Shown here: positions 8,045 through 19,521 of the stretch, piece by piece
How positions within the stretch are numbered: position 1 is the first letter of the stretch
Layout of the letters: the number at the start of each line of letters is the position of its first letter
Virus record (IMG/VR): IMGVR_UViG_3300031521_000374
Location: 1-21,863 of that record
Direction: 5' to 3' (one strand)
DNA length: 21,863 bases
DNA from: a virus
Program-made: the position numbers and the translations under genes
Notes under the pieces: model-generated
Databases searched by the model: none
Told to the model about the DNA's origin: nothing
Seen by the model: the letters and a program-made list of their open reading frames with translations, nothing else

Positions 8045-8069
8045 TTCAATTCCTCCTTATAATAAAATA

Positions 8070-8111
8070 ATATGAGCCTACTCGAAGTTTTATTCCCTCG
8101 TAAGCCCATAT
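8070..8111. promoter_or_regulatory. Imperfect palindrome overlapping the ligase promoter -10 and leader
   Basis: GTAAGCCCATAT at 8100-8111 and ATATGAGCCTAC at 8070-8081 are inverted copies matching at 10 of 12 positions; the two mismatches become G-U pairs in minus-strand RNA. The upstream arm includes part of the -10 box (8108-8113). The predicted start (near 8101) falls inside that arm. As DNA it could be an operator. If transcription starts a few bases earlier it would place a hairpin at the extreme 5' end of the mRNA. Confidence 0.5.
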
Positions 8112-8137
8112 TATCATAGTTGCATATGTGGTGTCAA
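8108..8137 (-). promoter_or_regulatory. Vegetative-type promoter for the DNA ligase gene
   Basis: Minus strand: perfect TTGACA (8137-8132), an 18-base spacer ending in TGA, then TAATAT (8113-8108), an extended -10. The -35 overlaps the TGA stop of the resolvase gene (8136-8134). The leader to the ligase ATG at 8044 is about 55 bases and contains the palindrome arm. Confidence 0.8.
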
Positions 8138-9202: not shown

Positions 9203-12200
9203 TTATTTGCGAATAACTTCCCATTTTTTCAGAATCAATTCTACTTCATCAATATTAACCCATTGACCATCAATTTTGCGCTTACGTTTTTCTTCAGCAA
9301 TTTCATTTGTAACAATGATATCGCCAACTACAAATTCATTATTATCAAAAGCTTTACCTCTGACTTTAATTTTTTCTGTACCACCTTTAGCGAGTCGGTG
9401 TAATGTGATGAATTTGTTGCTAAAGGATTGTTCAATGATAGTCACAATTGCATATGAGTCTGGAAGCTCTGATACGAGAGTTTGTGCATAACCGAGATAT
9501 TCAAGTTCGTGTTGGACTTTTTGTTGTACGCCAATATCTTTGTCGGGAATAGTTTCTGAAATAGATTTGATGATGCTCGTTGTGTCAACTAATTTGTATT
9601 GCTTCTCAGTTTGTGTTGAAAATTGCTCTATTATTGATTTGTATTCAGGATTAATTTTTTCTTTTGACATTTGTTTCTTGCCATAAAACGTATTAAACAC
9701 TTCTACGGTTTTTAACAACTTTTTTGCTTTACCAAATTCATCGAAGAATCCAAGCAATATTAAAATTTCAAGTTGTCTTGAATTTACAGAGCAACCTTTG
9801 ATATCTACCAATAGCTCTGCAAAAGATTCATATTGATTATCTTTTAGTGAATACAACTCTTGTGCAATCAATTCGTTTAGATGTTTAATGCTACTCATAC
9901 CTTTGTAAATTGTGTTTGTTTCTTTGTTGATAGAGTAATCAGCTTCGGAGTGCCTAAATTTTATGGACTCAACCTTAATATCAGTAAACCCATTTATAAA
10001 CTCAAAAACCCTCGTTGTTTTATCTTGATTGCTTTTGCATACATTTAGTGCAGTAGCAACAAATTCAAGTGTATAATAATGTCTCAAATAAGCACACATC
10101 AAGCCTATGGCGGAATATGGTACAGAATGGTTTGATGAAAACAAATATGAGCTGGCATCTTCAATTACTTGAATAAATGATTTTACAATTTCTTCCGCTT
10201 CTGATTTAGACGTATTGTATTGTTCTTGCATTGTTTTTACAAATCCATCAATAATCCGTGGCATAAACTCTTCTGTTCCGGTCTTTTTTGCAAAACCTCT
10301 TCTAACAATATCCGCCTCGCCCATTGTAAAACCACAGAATTTATTTAGGAATTCAATGATTTGTTCCTGAAAAACTAATCTACCTAATGTTGGAGATAAA
10401 AATTTATCTAATGCTTCATGACCATTTTCGTAAAACTCACCTTTTGCCAAAGAATATCTGTAACTTTCTCCAGCCGGACGTATCGCTCCGTTGCCGATAG
10501 ATAATAAATCTACCAATTTCACATTTGGATTAAGTTGTTTGATTTTTTCAATGGTTCCTTTTGAAAACAATTGCTTATAATACGCATACGCAGAATCAGA
10601 TTCCCACTGGAATATTTGAATACTACTTTTCATTATTTCATCATATAAGCTTTGGTCTTCCATATCAAAATTATCCATTGTTAATCTTGGGATTCCTGCG
10701 AGGGCACAAGTTTTATTAATTACCTCAATATTGTCCAATCCAAGGATATCAAGTTTTACAAAATTTAATCCGTCCACTTCTTTCATGTTGACTTGTGCTA
10801 CTGGATAATCACACGTAGAAAGAGTAAATGTTCCAAGTATATCATCTAATGGCATTGGGGAAACGATTGTTGCTGATGGGTGGGTTCCAATTGACACAAC
10901 AACCCCGATAAGCAAATCAACGTATTCAAAGATTTCGGGATACTCATTTCTCCATTTATCTTCCTGCGTTTCTATTGTAGAACACATTTCACCTACAGTT
11001 CCTAAATCAATATTAAATGTTCTGCACACATCTCTTATTGCCCCTTTGATTGCTATGGTATTAAACGTTACAATCTCCGCACAGTATAATCCATGTTTAT
11101 TATAAACATATTGCTTAACCCAATCCCGTTGTGATGGAGGCCAATCCGTATCCACATCAGCCAAGCTAATTTTATTAGGTGAAAAGAGCCTTTCAAAGTT
11201 CATATTAAACTTTAAACTGTCAACGTCCGTAATGTTTAATAGATATGCGTTAAGTGACCCCGAAATACTTCCACGAGAGGGGCCGGGGAATATCCCCTCT
11301 TTTCTACCCGCAGATTTAATATCCTCTTCAAGCAACATATAATCTATTACACCAAGTTTTTTCATAACGCCAAATTCATAGTTTAGACGATTTTTATAAT
11401 CTTCTGTGTTTGGATATTTATCAATTCCTCTTTCATAAAATCCCTCTAATACTTTAGCTTTAAATACTTTATTTGGATTTTTATATAACTTAGGATATTT
11501 ATACGACCTATCCAATGAAAATGATTCAATTGATTCTGCGATAACATTTGTGTTCTGGATTGCCTCAATTACAACATCCATTGGCAAGGAGTTTTGATTT
11601 GTAAATGCTTTAACTAATTCATCGTAGGTCTTAAATGATAAATCCCACCCTGCTTCATTTTCAAATAGAATTGATTTTGATTTCTGCAAAACATCTCTTC
11701 CTTTTAGATGCTTTGCGTTTAATGCGTGAGTATCTGTACAGGCCACCAATGGAATTCCAGTTTGCCTATGGACTTCATAAAGTTTCTGGTTATAAAGAAT
11801 TTGTGAATCAACTTTGTGGTGCTGTATCTCTAAATAACAGCGATGTTTATTTTTTTTCATAAATTCAATAAAGTCTCTTTCTAATTCAGCGTCTTCTGAG
11901 TTTAAGATTCCGCCCAAACATGCCGTTGAAATTATGACGTTATCACTAAATGATTTTAACTCCTCATACGTGATACGAGGTGCAAAGTAAAAATGACCAT
12001 CTTTTCTATTACATGCTAAATCTGCTGAAAAAGCTGTGTTTAATTCTTTTACAGCGTCCCAGTTCTTAGCAATGAGCAGAACGTGATAGTTATCTCTCTT
12101 TTTTTCTTCTGTGGATAAAGTCACGTAGCCTTCAATTGCGTGGATGTACTTTATGCCAACTTCATCACAATATTGTTTTTTATTTACCCACGAAAGAAAG

Positions 12201-12343
12201 TTACCGTGTTCGCTAAAGGCAATTGATGTCATGCCCGATTCTTTCGCCAATTTGATGTAATCCTTGTAATGTGTAACTGAATCAATTGTTGTAAATGCAT
12301 TGCTCAACATGGAGTGAAGATGCAATACTGTGTAGTTTTTCAT
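9203..12343 (-). CDS. dnaE: DNA polymerase III alpha subunit, DnaE type
   Basis: This is the replicative C-family polymerase. The N-terminal PHP domain keeps metal-site residues (H8, H10, E45/H46, and D204/H206 in CTDTHAL). The palm has GPSRGSISGSL (about 354-364), then D396 and D398 in LADVDTDW and D532 in VKLDILGLD, corresponding to the three catalytic aspartates of E. coli alpha. The fingers region contains SIGTHPSATIV. A helix-hairpin-helix region and an OB-like tail follow (about 945-1020). The protein has 1046 residues, slightly shorter than host DnaE, and no inserted 3'-5' exonuclease, so it is not PolC. The ATG overlaps the HNH gene stop by four bases and its GGAG lies inside that gene. 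No separate proofreading exonuclease is seen in the window. Confidence 0.95.
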   Translation of the reverse strand: MKNYTVLHLHSMLSNAFTTIDSVTHYKDYIKLAKESGMTSIAFSEHGNFLSWVNKKQYCDEVGIKYIHAIEGYVTLSTEEKKRDNYHVLLIAKNWDAVKELNTAFSADLACNRKDGHFYFAPRITYEELKSFSDNVIISTACLGGILNSEDAELERDFIEFMKKNKHRCYLEIQHHKVDSQILYNQKLYEVHRQTGIPLVACTDTHALNAKHLKGRDVLQKSKSILFENEAGWDLSFKTYDELVKAFTNQNSLPMDVVIEAIQNTNVIAESIESFSLDRSYKYPKLYKNPNKVFKAKVLEGFYERGIDKYPNTEDYKNRLNYEFGVMKKLGVIDYMLLEEDIKSAGRKEGIFPGPSRGSISGSLNAYLLNITDVDSLKFNMNFERLFSPNKISLADVDTDWPPSQRDWVKQYVYNKHGLYCAEIVTFNTIAIKGAIRDVCRTFNIDLGTVGEMCSTIETQEDKWRNEYPEIFEYVDLLIGVVVSIGTHPSATIVSPMPLDDILGTFTLSTCDYPVAQVNMKEVDGLNFVKLDILGLDNIEVINKTCALAGIPRLTMDNFDMEDQSLYDEIMKSSIQIFQWESDSAYAYYKQLFSKGTIEKIKQLNPNVKLVDLLSIGNGAIRPAGESYRYSLAKGEFYENGHEALDKFLSPTLGRLVFQEQIIEFLNKFCGFTMGEADIVRRGFAKKTGTEEFMPRIIDGFVKTMQEQYNTSKSEAEEIVKSFIQVIEDASSYLFSSNHSVPYSAIGLMCAYLRHYYTLEFVATALNVCKSNQDKTTRVFEFINGFTDIKVESIKFRHSEADYSINKETNTIYKGMSSIKHLNELIAQELYSLKDNQYESFAELLVDIKGCSVNSRQLEILILLGFFDEFGKAKKLLKTVEVFNTFYGKKQMSKEKINPEYKSIIEQFSTQTEKQYKLVDTTSIIKSISETIPDKDIGVQQKVQHELEYLGYAQTLVSELPDSYAIVTIIEQSFSNKFITLHRLAKGGTEKIKVRGKAFDNNEFVVGDIIVTNEIAEEKRKRKIDGQWVNIDEVELILKKWEVIRK

Positions 12344-14158: not shown

Positions 14159-15193
14159 TTATAACCAAACTATGTGGTTGTTGTATAATTCTTTAAACGC
14201 CATTTTGCCTAAATCTGTTGGAGCCATTTTGCTTCCACTTTTTAGAATTTCATTATATCTATCAAATATATATCCTACTTGATATTGTTGAAATACATTT
14301 TGAGCTTGTAATTTTTCTGCCTCTGAACGAATTTTATCTTCAGTTAAACCTTCGTCAAACATGAGAATATATTTTTCAGCGTTTAATGATTTTAAATATC
14401 TTTGATGATATGAACTAATATTGCTACCACCAACAGATGCTCCAGTTTTATAACCCATACTATCAAGTTGTTGTGGAAGTTTTTCACTCTCGCCTATCAT
14501 ACAAATTTTCTTATTTTGTATATCAGAATAATTTAAACTATATCCATATATTGCTTTGCTTTTTGCAAATGGAATTATGGGCAACCATTTACTGATATCT
14601 GCATCAGGAAACTGTGTATTTATTCTGCCCATGACTCCGACAATTTCTTCATTATGATTATACCAAGGCACACTCACTCTCATTGTGGTGGAATCATATC
14701 CTACATTGTATTTAATTTGTGTATCAATTGATATACCATCTCTCAAGAATAACATATTCGGAGACATTTTAAAATCATTCATAATTTCATCTGGATAAGT
14801 TTGTAAATCAATATCTTTAATTGAATTCTTAGATTGTATCTTTTTATAATATGCCCCGAATGGAAGATATCTTTCTATGGGAACAAGAGCATCATCAGAC
14901 AATCCTAACGTTGAGTACATATATTTTAATACATTTCTGAATGATGTGTTTAATTTATTTTGAATCAGTGAAATTATATCGCCAGATAATCCGGTAGAAA
15001 AACATGTGAATGGAATATTTTCTGAGCCATATTTTATAACTACACTTGTTGGATTTCTGTCATAGTCTCGACTGCATCTAATTTCTTGTCGTGATGAATT
15101 CCTTTTTATATTACAGAAATCAACAGAATGTAGTAATTGCTCTATTTTATCCGGTTCATCTTTTAAATATTCCTTTAGAGCAATTACATCCAT
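14159..15193 (-). CDS. DnaG-like DNA primase with a degenerate zinc-binding domain
   Basis: It makes RNA primers for the replisome. The N-terminal region has the shape of a CHC2 domain (RCSRDYDRNPTS at about 39-50, then FTCFSTGLSGDIISLI at 62-77). However, only C40 and C64 of the usual ligands remain: the His position is Tyr/Asp and the last Cys is T67, so zinc may not be bound. The catalytic Toprim core follows with IGESEK (E235/E237), ILMFDEG (D280) and a late VGYIFDRYNEILKSGSKMAPTDLG, corresponding to the acidic motifs. At 344 residues it is much shorter than host DnaG and lacks the C-terminal helicase-binding domain. It has a strong SD (AGAGGTGA) and starts nine bases after the helicase stop, so the two are coupled. 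Confidence 0.85.
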   Translation of the reverse strand: MDVIALKEYLKDEPDKIEQLLHSVDFCNIKRNSSRQEIRCSRDYDRNPTSVVIKYGSENIPFTCFSTGLSGDIISLIQNKLNTSFRNVLKYMYSTLGLSDDALVPIERYLPFGAYYKKIQSKNSIKDIDLQTYPDEIMNDFKMSPNMLFLRDGISIDTQIKYNVGYDSTTMRVSVPWYNHNEEIVGVMGRINTQFPDADISKWLPIIPFAKSKAIYGYSLNYSDIQNKKICMIGESEKLPQQLDSMGYKTGASVGGSNISSYHQRYLKSLNAEKYILMFDEGLTEDKIRSEAEKLQAQNVFQQYQVGYIFDRYNEILKSGSKMAPTDLGKMAFKELYNNHIVWL

Positions 15194-15202
15194 TAGTCAC
15201 CT

Positions 15203-16678
15203 CTATTTGCTAAAAGCCCTATCATGATAAGGATTGCAAAATCCAATTTCAGTCCATTTATTCCACTGACCATCAAACTTGAATACCAAGGCTTGATTCG
15301 CCTCATCATTGCGAGTCTTTGTGTGAAAGAAAAGTTTATACTTCTTATTGCGGTCAAGTTCCACTATTTCACGAACATTTGTATATTTGCCATGTTCATC
15401 TCTTTTTAGATTATGTGGTTTGATATCATATTTATCACCATCAAATTCATCTTCCCATACATCCCTGAACATGATAATTTCAGAAAATACTTCTGCAATT
15501 TGTTTACCATTAGCAAGACATTGTAAATCAAGAAATCTCTTATTCATCATATGCAATGCTAATTGTAGTGTGACAATGCAAGCAACATTTTCCTTTGATA
15601 CGGCTTGAAATAACTTCTTTGAATCAGATAGCAAACTTTCCCATGCCGATTTATTATTATCTTCTGCGAGTTTCATTGTATCATAGATTACCAAGTCAAG
15701 TCCAAGTTTACTTTGTTTTTTTATAACCTTTGTGGTCTTTTCAATATTATAATCAAATGTCTTGACAAACTTCAACTTCGGCTTATACTCTCTATTGATA
15801 ATTTCTTGTGCTTCTTTGATTTTAACTATATCCTCATCCGTGAATGTGCCAGTTTTTAGTTTCTTGCGTGTGAGATTATAATAATCCAACCGTCTTACTA
15901 ATACATGAATGAGCAGAAGCAGTTTATAAACCTTATTCTGTTGCTCGTTGGATATAATCATGACATTGCCACCAGATTCTACTATGGGAATAGCATACAC
16001 ATCCATTATAACAGACGATTTACCTCCATTGGTATAAGAACATACAGCAGTAATATCTGCACGAGGAACGCCCAATGTGAGCCTATTCAAACGTGGAGCA
16101 TATTTACCATATCCAATACCCATCTCTTCACCACGTTTACATGATTCCAGAAATTCATCATCAATTCCTAAATCTTCAATTTCAACGTCCATTGTTTTAG
16201 CAATGATAGAGTCATTCAGAATGTATTCATAATAATCAAATACTTCCTGTGTGGTCATTTTGTTGAATTTATCCATATTACTGATAACATTAAATCCCTT
16301 ATCATGCAATGTTAGTAGAAAATTGTTCTTAGATAAATTATCATAATATGCATCTGCATTAGTGGCATCAACAATTGAAATCATTTCATTAATTGAATTC
16401 CAACCACCTCTGCGTTCATAACCATTTTTTAATACCGGATTAGAAACCGTAAAAGCCGCAATACTTGCATCATCAAATGAGCGATACCCATTCTTAAATA
16501 ATTCCATCCCCAATGAATAGTAAAATATTCCATCTTCTGTGAGGAATGTTTTATTTGCCACTACATCTGTATAATCTCCATATTTTTCTGGGTCTGAGAA
16601 TAGACATGCTATAAAATTACCTTCCATGATATTCCTATTTGATACAAGTTCACTTGGATATAAATCTAATGTTTTCAT
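15203..16678 (-). CDS. dnaB: DnaB-like replicative helicase
   Basis: A hexameric 5'-3' helicase that opens the fork. The N-terminal helical domain spans about 15-110. The RecA-like domain starts near 195. Walker A reads CSYTNGGKSS (K220, S221), with Ser where most P-loops have the first Gly. MIISNEQ supplies the catalytic Glu (E245), and LDLVIYD is Walker B (D333). CIVTLQLAL matches the DnaB SQL segment and GKQIAEVFSEIIMFRD the late sensor motif. At 491 residues it is the size of a full DnaB. The ATG overlaps the upstream TAA (TAATG) with GGAGG four bases before it. Primase follows at once, and the unknown gene in front may load it. Confidence 0.9.
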   Translation of the reverse strand: MKTLDLYPSELVSNRNIMEGNFIACLFSDPEKYGDYTDVVANKTFLTEDGIFYYSLGMELFKNGYRSFDDASIAAFTVSNPVLKNGYERRGGWNSINEMISIVDATNADAYYDNLSKNNFLLTLHDKGFNVISNMDKFNKMTTQEVFDYYEYILNDSIIAKTMDVEIEDLGIDDEFLESCKRGEEMGIGYGKYAPRLNRLTLGVPRADITAVCSYTNGGKSSVIMDVYAIPIVESGGNVMIISNEQQNKVYKLLLLIHVLVRRLDYYNLTRKKLKTGTFTDEDIVKIKEAQEIINREYKPKLKFVKTFDYNIEKTTKVIKKQSKLGLDLVIYDTMKLAEDNNKSAWESLLSDSKKLFQAVSKENVACIVTLQLALHMMNKRFLDLQCLANGKQIAEVFSEIIMFRDVWEDEFDGDKYDIKPHNLKRDEHGKYTNVREIVELDRNKKYKLFFHTKTRNDEANQALVFKFDGQWNKWTEIGFCNPYHDRAFSK

Positions 16679-17163
16679 TAATCCTCCAGAAAAATTGATA
16701 TATCTTTGCGTTGATTTGTTGCTGTAGATTTTATATTTGCATTGATTATGTCTAATTCCACATAATTCCCATCGGTTGATTTGGGTTCAATTATTTTCAC
16801 AGTTGATATGTTATTTTTGATTATGGCTATTATATAGGAAGTTTTTTGAAATATATTATTAAACTCTTTTGTGTTAGCATAATCAAAACTTGCTTTATTT
16901 TGGCGTATACATTCATATATTAAATTTTCTGGATACTCTAAGGATTTTAGTTTTGAAATAAACATAGGTGGGACAATCCCATTATCAAATATCATCTCAG
17001 AAACTAAATTGATTAAGTGGCTTTTAGATTCCTTATCCTTTTTCCATTCATTATACACGGACTCATCTTTAAAATACTTACTTAGTTTTCCAACTTGCCC
17101 TTTAAAGAAGATATCATTTGTACCAGATTCACCCGTTATATAACACTTAACTTTTCGTGCCAT
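16678..17163 (-). CDS. Unknown protein ahead of the helicase; possible helicase partner (161 aa)
   Basis: Not firmly recognised. It begins MARKVKCYITGESG and has a charged middle helix (VYNEWKKDKESKSHLINLVSEM). It also has the stretch FQKTSYIIAIIKNNIS, which from memory recurs in phage proteins encoded beside replicative helicases. No Walker motif, zinc site or membrane helix is seen. Two facts suggest a loader or regulator: it is placed one overlapping base from the helicase gene, and its SD (AAAGGGG, 17177-17171) is built into the switch-like leader after the Sak4 gene. By analogy, phage helicase loaders (G39P, gp59 types) are small, poorly conserved and next to the helicase. This role is inference. 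Confidence 0.75.
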   Translation of the reverse strand: MARKVKCYITGESGTNDIFFKGQVGKLSKYFKDESVYNEWKKDKESKSHLINLVSEMIFDNGIVPPMFISKLKSLEYPENLIYECIRQNKASFDYANTKEFNNIFQKTSYIIAIIKNNISTVKIIEPKSTDGNYVELDIINANIKSTATNQRKDISIFLED

Positions 17164-17170
17164 TATTACA

Positions 17171-17194
17171 CCCCTTTGTTAAAAAGAAAAGGGG
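17171..17194 (-). promoter_or_regulatory. SD-sequestering hairpin, alternative to the terminator
   Basis: In minus-strand RNA CCCCUUU (17194-17188) is perfectly complementary to AAAGGGG (17177-17171), the Shine-Dalgarno of the gene starting at 17163, with a 10-base loop. A G-U pair can extend the stem. The same CCCC segment forms the 3' arm of the terminator, so the two structures exclude each other. This makes a three-segment switch; the trigger is unknown. Confidence 0.5.
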
Positions 17195-17207
17195 CAATTA
17201 AGCCCCT
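17181..17207 (-). terminator. Intrinsic terminator after the Sak4-like gene
   Basis: Minus-strand RNA: a 6-bp GC-rich stem, AGGGGC against GCCCCU, with loop UUAAUU, followed by UUUCUUUUU. It begins five bases after the TAG stop of the upstream gene, so a terminating ribosome would cover its 5' arm. It lies inside the replication unit with no obvious promoter behind it, so it should be partial or regulated rather than absolute. Confidence 0.8.
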
Positions 17208-17211
17208 ATCA

Positions 17212-18276
17212 CTATTCTTTTAGAACTGCTACGATTGCTGACAATCCCTCTGTGCTTAGTTCTGTTGCATTTTTGAAGTTTTTAATTCCGTGTTTAGCCA
17301 TGATTGCTTTAATTCGTTCCTTTGCATCTTCTTCAGCGTTTGGAAACTTTTGTTGAATAAATGTAACCATTTCTTCATTTTTTCCATCTTCTGATTCTGC
17401 TACGGTTTCTGCAATAGAAGCTTCTTTCGCAAGTTCGGCTTTTTCTTTTGCATCTTGCGCTTTCTTTTTATCAAACTCTTTGTCAGAAAAATCTTTGCCC
17501 AGTGAATTTTTAATACCTTCTTCAACCGCTTTGAAATAATTCATTGCTCCGTATTCAACACGATTTGGGATATTATCAAAACGTGAACCTGCATCAATAA
17601 ATCCATCTGAACGGAAATACATATAACGTTCTGTATCTTTAAGCATACTTTCTTCAATAACTTTTTCAGTTACGATATTACACACAACGTCTGCTTTATA
17701 AGCAAATACGTTATAGTAATCAGCAGAAAGGTTAGATGTGATAATGCTATACGGGTCGCCATCAGTCTTTTGTTTAATCTCACGGAACTTGTTATGACCA
17801 ATCATAAAGAGTCCAGATTTTACACGTTTAAGTCGAGTAAGTTGTTCAGTAAGGAGCATAGATAGACGCTCTCGCCCTTTACCATATCCTCCAAAAGCCT
17901 CGTTAATTGACTTGCAATCCGTTTGTTTTTCAACTTTATGCATTCTGATAACTTCTTTGATTGCCATATTCACAAGTTCATCAATAGTATCAATGGCAAT
18001 CATTTTAAATTCATTGTCATCAGGATTTTTAACAAGCTCATCAACAATCGCTACAAACTCTTTCCATGTCATAGGATTTTCATAAACCAAACCATCAATT
18101 GCATGGAATCCATCTTCATCTCCCAATGAAATCAGCAGAAGTTTGTCAATGTCTCCATAAACGTCTTTTGCAAGATTTGCCATTAGAGTTGATTTACCAA
18201 TTTTCCGTTCTCCAATAATAAGATGACAATAATTCTCAAGATTCACCTTAACAGTATTCTTTTTTCCCAGTGCCAT
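17212..18276 (-). CDS. Sak4-like RecA-fold ATPase (AAA_24 type)
   Basis: Such phage proteins are single-domain RecA/RadA relatives that act in strand annealing or exchange with an SSB. Walker A is IIGERKIGKSTL (G22-S29) and Walker B is FKMIAIDTIDEL (D95). SGLFMIGHNKF matches the sensor strand. The ATPase core covers about 1-235. A highly charged linker (about 255-300, rich in Lys/Glu/Ala) leads to a small C-terminal helical domain (about 302-354). The ATG at 18276 has GGAGG six bases upstream. It lies directly after the SSB candidate, the pairing known for Sak4 proteins. A nucleotide-binding helicase loader is the alternative. The ATPase call is firm; the recombinase role is likely. Confidence 0.85.
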   Translation of the reverse strand: MALGKKNTVKVNLENYCHLIIGERKIGKSTLMANLAKDVYGDIDKLLLISLGDEDGFHAIDGLVYENPMTWKEFVAIVDELVKNPDDNEFKMIAIDTIDELVNMAIKEVIRMHKVEKQTDCKSINEAFGGYGKGRERLSMLLTEQLTRLKRVKSGLFMIGHNKFREIKQKTDGDPYSIITSNLSADYYNVFAYKADVVCNIVTEKVIEESMLKDTERYMYFRSDGFIDAGSRFDNIPNRVEYGAMNYFKAVEEGIKNSLGKDFSDKEFDKKKAQDAKEKAELAKEASIAETVAESEDGKNEEMVTFIQQKFPNAEEDAKERIKAIMAKHGIKNFKNATELSTEGLSAIVAVLKE

Positions 18277-18308: not shown

Positions 18309-19409
18309 TTAAAACAAATCCTCATCATCGTCATCCATTTCAAACAATTGAACTCCAGTTTCTTCTTTCACTTGTGTTACAGTTTTAGTTTCAGATGTTG
18401 TATAAATTTGTGCTCTGAATTCTTCTTCTGACAATCCGCTATCAACTGCTCCATCTGTGAATGCTCCCTCAATCAGTGGTTTAGAGAGTCGGAATTCAAT
18501 TTTATTACCACCTACAGGTTTTGTTTTGGGTTTAAAATCTTCAATCTTAGAAATTCCCAATTCAACTTGTTCTCGTTGACTATCTGTAAGCATATCTTCA
18601 GTAAATTCCACTTCTTCTGCACCACGGAATGCATTGATTTCCCATGGAATATGGCAGAATGAATCTCCAGAAATCTTGAAGATGTTTTTAAGATAATTCA
18701 ATCGTTTCACATGGTCGGGATTATTAACATCTACTTTGGATGCATTGATTACAAAATTCATTGGCATAAACTTACTGCCAGTATCTTTGTCAATGTATTG
18801 TGAAACATACCCTGCAACATCAATAAGCTTGTCTTCTTCAAATCTATCTTCTGTCATAGAATCTGCGTTGAAGAATACATCTACCGTACATTGGAATCGT
18901 GGTTTTTCGTCTTCATTCGCAAGTTTGATAAACTTAGGATTGAATTTCTGATAAGTTTTTCCTCCACCTGATTCAACTTTAAAATCACCGCCAATATAAA
19001 TCTTCTTGCCTGCGTGCTTTGGAAATTCTTCTTTGAGATACTGAACCATATCATATTCATGTAGAAAAACTTTTTCTTCGCCAAGATTAACTTTTAGAAG
19101 CTTAAAATCTGCAACCATGTTAATGATTTTTTGGTCATTGCGGTCTTTCCAAGGAATCTCAAGTTTGGAACCTTTTTTGTCTCCTTCATTTTTACTGAAT
19201 GAAGAAATCTTGCCTTTGCTATCCACTGTTGAACAACTGAAAATTTCTGCAAATTGACCATTAGATTTGTCAACATTCATGCCAAACTTCATTTTTGTAA
19301 GATTCCATTTTCCGTCTTTACTTTTTGATTCTTCAAAGAATTTCATTTTGCTTTCCGCTTTAGGAATAAAAATCTCTCCCACAAAATTAAACTTGTTGTT
19401 AAATGCCAT
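18309..19409 (-). CDS. ssb: Probable phage single-stranded DNA-binding protein
   Basis: The 366 residues begin FNNKFNFVGEIFIPK, which resembles the first OB strand of SSB proteins. WNLTKMKFGMNV and FAEIFSCSTV follow as further strands. A second beta-rich block at about 120-230 (KIYIGGDFKVESGGGKTYQKF, DVAGYVSQYI) may be a second OB-like domain. The C terminus is a flexible linker ending MDDDDEDLF, an acidic tip with a final Phe like the protein-docking tail of bacterial SSB. Size and layout are unlike E. coli SSB (178 aa), so this is a divergent phage form. The ATG at 19409 has GGAG eleven bases away. It is the first gene of the replication block and has an unusual cytosine-poor leader. The identification is by pattern, not certain. 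Confidence 0.7.
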   Translation of the reverse strand: MAFNNKFNFVGEIFIPKAESKMKFFEESKSKDGKWNLTKMKFGMNVDKSNGQFAEIFSCSTVDSKGKISSFSKNEGDKKGSKLEIPWKDRNDQKIINMVADFKLLKVNLGEEKVFLHEYDMVQYLKEEFPKHAGKKIYIGGDFKVESGGGKTYQKFNPKFIKLANEDEKPRFQCTVDVFFNADSMTEDRFEEDKLIDVAGYVSQYIDKDTGSKFMPMNFVINASKVDVNNPDHVKRLNYLKNIFKISGDSFCHIPWEINAFRGAEEVEFTEDMLTDSQREQVELGISKIEDFKPKTKPVGGNKIEFRLSKPLIEGAFTDGAVDSGLSEEEFRAQIYTTSETKTVTQVKEETGVQLFEMDDDDEDLF

Positions 19410-19491: not shown

Positions 19492-19521
19492 ATCATACCA
19501 CAATCCCAATCCTATTGTCAA
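19492..19521 (-). promoter_or_regulatory. Vegetative-type promoter for the replication block
   Basis: Minus strand: perfect TTGACA (19521-19516), an 18-base spacer ending in TGG, then TATGAT (19497-19492), an extended -10. Predicted start is near 19485. The spacer and early transcript contain three TTGGGA repeats that could be a protein-binding site. It appears to be the only promoter for about 11 kb of genes down to 8134. Confidence 0.82.

Follow-up and report, generated by a model that had tools for sequence, protein, structure and literature searches.

A hairpin with terminator features downstream of a phage sak4 gene is conserved in position among relatives

The stretch of DNA analysed here, a 21.9-kb viral record (21,863 nt; hereafter, the window), carries on its minus strand a replication module of the SPbeta type, in the order unnamed protein, Sak4, small conserved protein, DnaB-like helicase, primase, PD-(D/E)XK nuclease, HNH protein and DNA polymerase III alpha subunit (PolIII alpha), and a comparable gene order occurs in Perkons, TR-TP1, Goe12, phage 949 and others. 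The gene identities in the first-pass annotation were borne out by PHROG and Pfam matches, which give Sak4, the small conserved protein, helicase, primase, nuclease and PolIII alpha, with the family of the small protein lacking a Pfam match. Distant blastn against phages gave no match, and viral searches with single proteins returned only near-identical copies of the same phage. From the GC content (33-34%) and the hosts of its relatives, the host is presumably a member of the Bacillota. The main features of the module are:

19492-19521, minus strand: best promoter-like site upstream of the operon, TTGACA-18-TATGAT with TG before the -10 (consensus match only)
18309-19409, minus strand: unnamed protein, upstream of Sak4
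17212-18276, minus strand: Sak4-like single-strand annealing recombinase, 354 aa (PHROG 124, E 7e-32; Pfam AAA_24, E 2.8e-27)
16678-17163, minus strand: small conserved protein between recombinase and helicase, 161 aa (PHROG 4680/6344)
15203-16678, minus strand: DnaB-like replicative helicase (PHROG 239, Pfam DnaB_C)
14159-15193, minus strand: DNA primase (PHROG 47)
9203-12343, minus strand: PolIII alpha (PHROG 405 and Pfam)

Between the promoter-like site at 19492-19521 and position 15775 there is no other site on this strand with at least 10 of 12 consensus matches, and transcription of the replisome genes therefore probably relies on readthrough from upstream. The gap between the Sak4 stop codon and the next gene is 48 nt long and, with its borders, comprises:

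17214-17212, minus strand: Sak4 stop codon TAG, 5' of the hairpin
17207-17202, minus strand: segment 1, AGGGGC, 5' arm of the hairpin (sequence and fold)
17201-17196, minus strand: hairpin loop, UUAAUU
17195-17188, minus strand: segment 2, GCCCCUUU, 3' arm and first U residues (sequence and fold)
17190-17181, minus strand: U-tract of an intrinsic terminator, UUUUCUUUUU (sequence and tail score)
17177-17171, minus strand: segment 3, AAAGGGG, Shine-Dalgarno sequence (SD) of the next gene (sequence and fold)
17163-17161, minus strand: ATG of the small-protein gene

The three segments lie where the first-pass annotation had put them, with four bases separating segment 1 from the Sak4 stop, so that it starts at the fifth base, and the element does mark the boundary between recombination and replisome genes, a position kept in relatives. 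Segments 1 and 2 (minus strand, 17207-17190) pair as a GGGGC/GCCCC stem with UUUUCUUUUU directly behind it, and the terminator half of the arrangement proposed there thus stands: the stem has 6 bp, five of them G-C, and a loop of six (the UUAAUU hexaloop is also present in four other relatives); seven of the eight bases after the GC core are T; and the tail score, 4.55, is the fourth highest among 42 relatives. Under a loose criterion seven terminator-like matches were found in the 12-21.9 kb region, 3.3 +/- 1.8 being expected, and the 17207-17190 hairpin was the richest in G-C pairs (5/6). A strict criterion, set after the site had been seen (5-bp all-GC stem plus at least six T in eight), gave exactly one site in the window and none in 200 local-composition shuffles. 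The foldability of the 48-nt gap alone does not significantly exceed that of dinucleotide shuffles (z -1.1, P 0.16), and the significance of the hairpin hence comes from the combination of stem and U-tract and from comparison with relatives.

The exact 22-mer AGGGGCTTAATTGCCCCTTTTC, which spans the hairpin plus UUUUC, was found in 12 stretches, three of which are this phage. Among the other nine, two of which share their context, the 22-mer lies behind an unrelated reading frame, 4-35 nt past its stop codon in eight and 117 nt past it in one; any gene that begins close by has a different SD, lacking AAAGGGG. Judged by these contexts, AGGGGCTTAATTGCCCCTTTTC is apparently a stock terminator sequence. 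The identical 22-base hairpin after unrelated frames was seen in viral contigs L013-L017, L019, L020, L022 and L023.

Relatives were gathered by alignment searches with Sak4 and the helicase, giving IMG/VR loci, together with annotated phages; junctions downstream of Sak4 were located by HMM and thinned to 47 at less than 80% alike. Manual curation removed seven loci that had no gap, were truncated or were not followed by a clear gene, and five further loci from a search of genome contigs stand outside the junction counts. As MAFFT could not align the stems across relatives, the comparison used position and energy statistics and loop-anchored counts rather than a covariance model. The best hairpin reached -10 kcal/mol or lower in 43 of the 47 non-redundant junctions, with 42 retained after inspection; four relatives (L007, L106, L085 and L093) lack such a hairpin and that of L072 is of a different kind. 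The median energy was -14.9 kcal/mol, stems were often of 8-17 bp, and the GC core began 5-27 nt (median 12) past the Sak4 stop codon, in hairpins of very dissimilar sequence; no primary-sequence motif common to the relatives was found downstream of Sak4. Taken singly, 38 of the 47 junctions had P<0.05 against dinucleotide shuffles (Fisher combined ~1e-40, a value that ignores shared ancestry). By comparison, 56 control gaps, 40-140 nt long, taken from three of these genomes and not including the gap before Sak4, had a median of -3.5 kcal/mol, with 5 of 56 at -10 or better (Mann-Whitney P 7e-15 for Sak4 junctions versus control gaps). In 15 of 33 relatives the gap upstream of Sak4 likewise folds into a hairpin at -10 or better, and hairpins are therefore common on both sides of Sak4, less regularly so upstream. 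We found nothing in the literature on this hairpin in phages, in a search that most subscription journals fell outside.

Constraint in the relatives is visible at the level of the RNA. The sense hairpin is more stable than the antisense one in 36 of 42 cases and less stable in 4, G-U pairs number 49 in the sense against 14 in the antisense strand, and eight of 16 tetraloops are GNRA. Such asymmetry, together with the G-U pairs and GNRA loops, points to selection on the coding-strand RNA, and the selected object is most likely an RNA hairpin on that strand. In the L043-L057 group, whose flanks are nearly identical, the stem is altered by compensating substitutions; with two compensatory pairs, and 26 of 500 shuffles scoring as high, this group alone gives a modest signal.

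Terminator features recur among the relatives as well. The mean U content of the 8 nt past the GC core is 0.58, versus a background of 0.33, and 25 of 42 relatives have a U-rich tail (at least five of eight). A convincing U-tract is missing in the other 17 (TR-TP1, Sundance and L050, for example), which implies that termination is not the sole conserved function. In L032 (phage L47), L060, L066 and L069 the hairpin is followed by a promoter-like sequence that departs from the consensus at one position at most, and the same succession is found in phage 949, a relative of L47; these promoter-like sequences suggest that the hairpin marks a transcription-unit boundary. Moreover, the phiCDIF1296T record has a terminator, annotated by its depositors, at the corresponding site behind an ERF recombinase gene. 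According to a review and a Term-seq study, B. subtilis terminators are found near stop codons, which agrees with transcription outpacing translation (PMC7858274, PMC12207403), and the spacing between hairpin and stop codon seen here agrees with that of Bacillota terminators (PMC12207403, PMC7858274).

That a boundary hairpin is conserved in position among relatives, and bears terminator features in this phage, we regard as genuine. The element probably works as an intrinsic terminator that leaks, or as a boundary hairpin, marking the end of the recombinase segment and reducing expression of the replisome genes. RNA polymerase starting at the promoter-like site near 19.5 kb would transcribe the upstream gene and sak4, and a fraction of the polymerases would halt at the U-tract, a few bases past the sak4 stop, while the remainder would continue into the small-protein, helicase, primase, nuclease and polymerase genes, leaving the annealing protein in excess of the replisome parts. 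In the readthrough RNA the hairpin formed by segments 1 and 2, being the more stable state, would stay folded and keep segment 2 off the SD, so that the next gene could be translated. The hairpin may also supply a protected 3' end for sak4 mRNA. We infer termination, its partial extent and its effect on stoichiometry. As the window shows no promoter downstream of the hairpin, efficient termination would shut off essential genes, and leakiness or antitermination must be assumed.

Like intrinsic (Rho-independent) Bacillota terminators near stop codons, the window element combines a GC-rich stem, a loop within 3-8 nt, a U-tract and proximity to a stop; unlike them, it lies inside what appears to be a single operon and must leak, and in many relatives only the hairpin, and no U-tract, is kept. 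In phage and bacterial operons, internal attenuating terminators adjust stoichiometry by ending only part of the transcripts. With these the window shares a location between genes needed in different amounts and no visible downstream promoter, but the hairpin here recurs at one junction across many divergent phages, and its readthrough is presumed. As in attenuation leaders of the terminator-antiterminator or SD-sequestering kinds, mutually exclusive pairings can be drawn; unlike in these, the alternative pairing is not conserved, neither leader peptide nor aptamer was seen in the window, and both states are off.

A less likely account, though one with some weight, is that the hairpin acts after transcription, stabilising the processed 3' end of sak4 mRNA or blocking exonucleases (segmental stability), with termination a variable extra. 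Its persistence in relatives without a U-tract would fit such a role, as would the often long stems with GNRA loops and the occurrence of the hairpin after Sak4 even where the downstream gene differs (FADO, Bco136 and similar phages). The clearly raised U content past the hairpin, however, argues against it, and so do the lineages in which a promoter-like sequence follows, as these look like transcription-unit ends.

The first-pass annotation had instead proposed a three-segment switch, in which pairing of segments 1 and 2 terminates transcription and pairing of segments 2 and 3 permits readthrough but hides the SD, the choice being set by a ribosome at the sak4 stop or by another signal. The mutual exclusivity of the two pairings is thermodynamically real: the predicted structures are of similar stability (-11.6 kcal/mol for 1-2 and -9.4 kcal/mol for 2-3), and the GGGG of the SD, ~92% unpaired in the full RNA, falls to ~0-3% unpaired in silico once the 5' half of segment 1 is removed. 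Left intact, however, the more stable hairpin 1-2 is predicted to prevail, with the SD open. Also in keeping with a switch, the window arm ranks first among 40 arms in its match to the window SD, and that SD first among 40 in its match to the arm. Yet the alternative pairing is not conserved: mean arm-SD duplex energy across the phages compared, the window among them, was -7.4 with their own SD versus -7.0 with swapped SDs (P 0.10), and -8.0 versus -7.5 after overlapping cases were removed (P 0.08; P 0.16 with the window also excluded), while removing the 5' arm lowered SD accessibility by more than 0.4 in only 6 of 41 relatives. Such complementarity is cheap, since the SDs of all these phages are rich in purines and the 3' arms in pyrimidines, and the same 22-mer precedes SDs without AAAGGGG at unrelated junctions. 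Moreover, both states as originally drawn leave the downstream gene off. Coupling to a ribosome finishing Sak4 is unlikely given the presumed Bacillota host, in which RNA polymerase outruns ribosomes (PMC7858274, PMC12207403) and a ribosome at the sak4 stop would seldom arrive in time to block segment 1. Control by a ligand, also suggested at first, fares no better, as 48 nt leave little room for an aptamer, the window has no Rfam match and no conserved motif was found. From these sequence comparisons the SD-sequestering state is probably incidental, and a regulatory terminator-versus-SD switch, a possible function that comparison does not support, appears improbable.

A DNA-level element, such as a cruciform or single-strand replication signal beside the replication genes, would account for inverted repeats at a replication-gene junction but should be strand-neutral, and we rejected it as very improbable on the strand asymmetry (36/42, with the G-U excess and GNRA loops). 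Chance, that is, an ordinary purine/pyrimidine-rich gap without function, is hardly credible either: the window gap alone does not fold significantly better than shuffles, but position and structure are conserved at ~42 of 47 divergent junctions and stem plus U-tract occurred in 0 of 200 shuffles.

Returning to the boundary hairpin as a leaky terminator, we tentatively extend it, with rather less confidence than for this phage, to SPbeta-type modules in general: a dedicated hairpin between recombinase and replisome genes, conserved in position and free in sequence, may set the ratio of annealing protein to replication machinery through partial termination or RNA processing, and may outlast near-complete sequence replacement. 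If functional, it would give a wide range of Bacillota phages a conserved point of control between their recombination and replication genes, and deletion of a stem only a few base pairs long could directly test how annealing protein is balanced against helicase and polymerase. The retention of terminator-like hairpins despite loss of the U-tract also bears on the purpose of intercistronic hairpins.

Other hairpins were noted around Sak4 and elsewhere. In the FADO/Bco136-like group (L011, L012, L040, L045, L050 and L059) the SD of Sak4 itself lies within the 3' arm of a leader hairpin, CCCCUU...AAGGGG, just before the start codon, with loop-side sequences that vary between phages; absent from the window, this hairpin is a candidate for translational control of Sak4. 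In L011, L012, L040, L041, L051 and L064 the Sak4 hairpin is followed in the gap by another one, around the SD of the gene downstream (cell-wall peptidase-like in FADO), with a partly conserved CUAGAGUAACGAUUCUAGGA that is perhaps a protein-binding site. Within the window, minus strand, a long hairpin (~-23 kcal/mol) followed by UUAUUUUAUU lies at 8045-8133, after a resolvase gene and before an NAD-dependent ligase gene, and a strong hairpin (~-21 kcal/mol) lacking a U-tract lies at 2771-2832, downstream of a ribonucleotide reductase gene.
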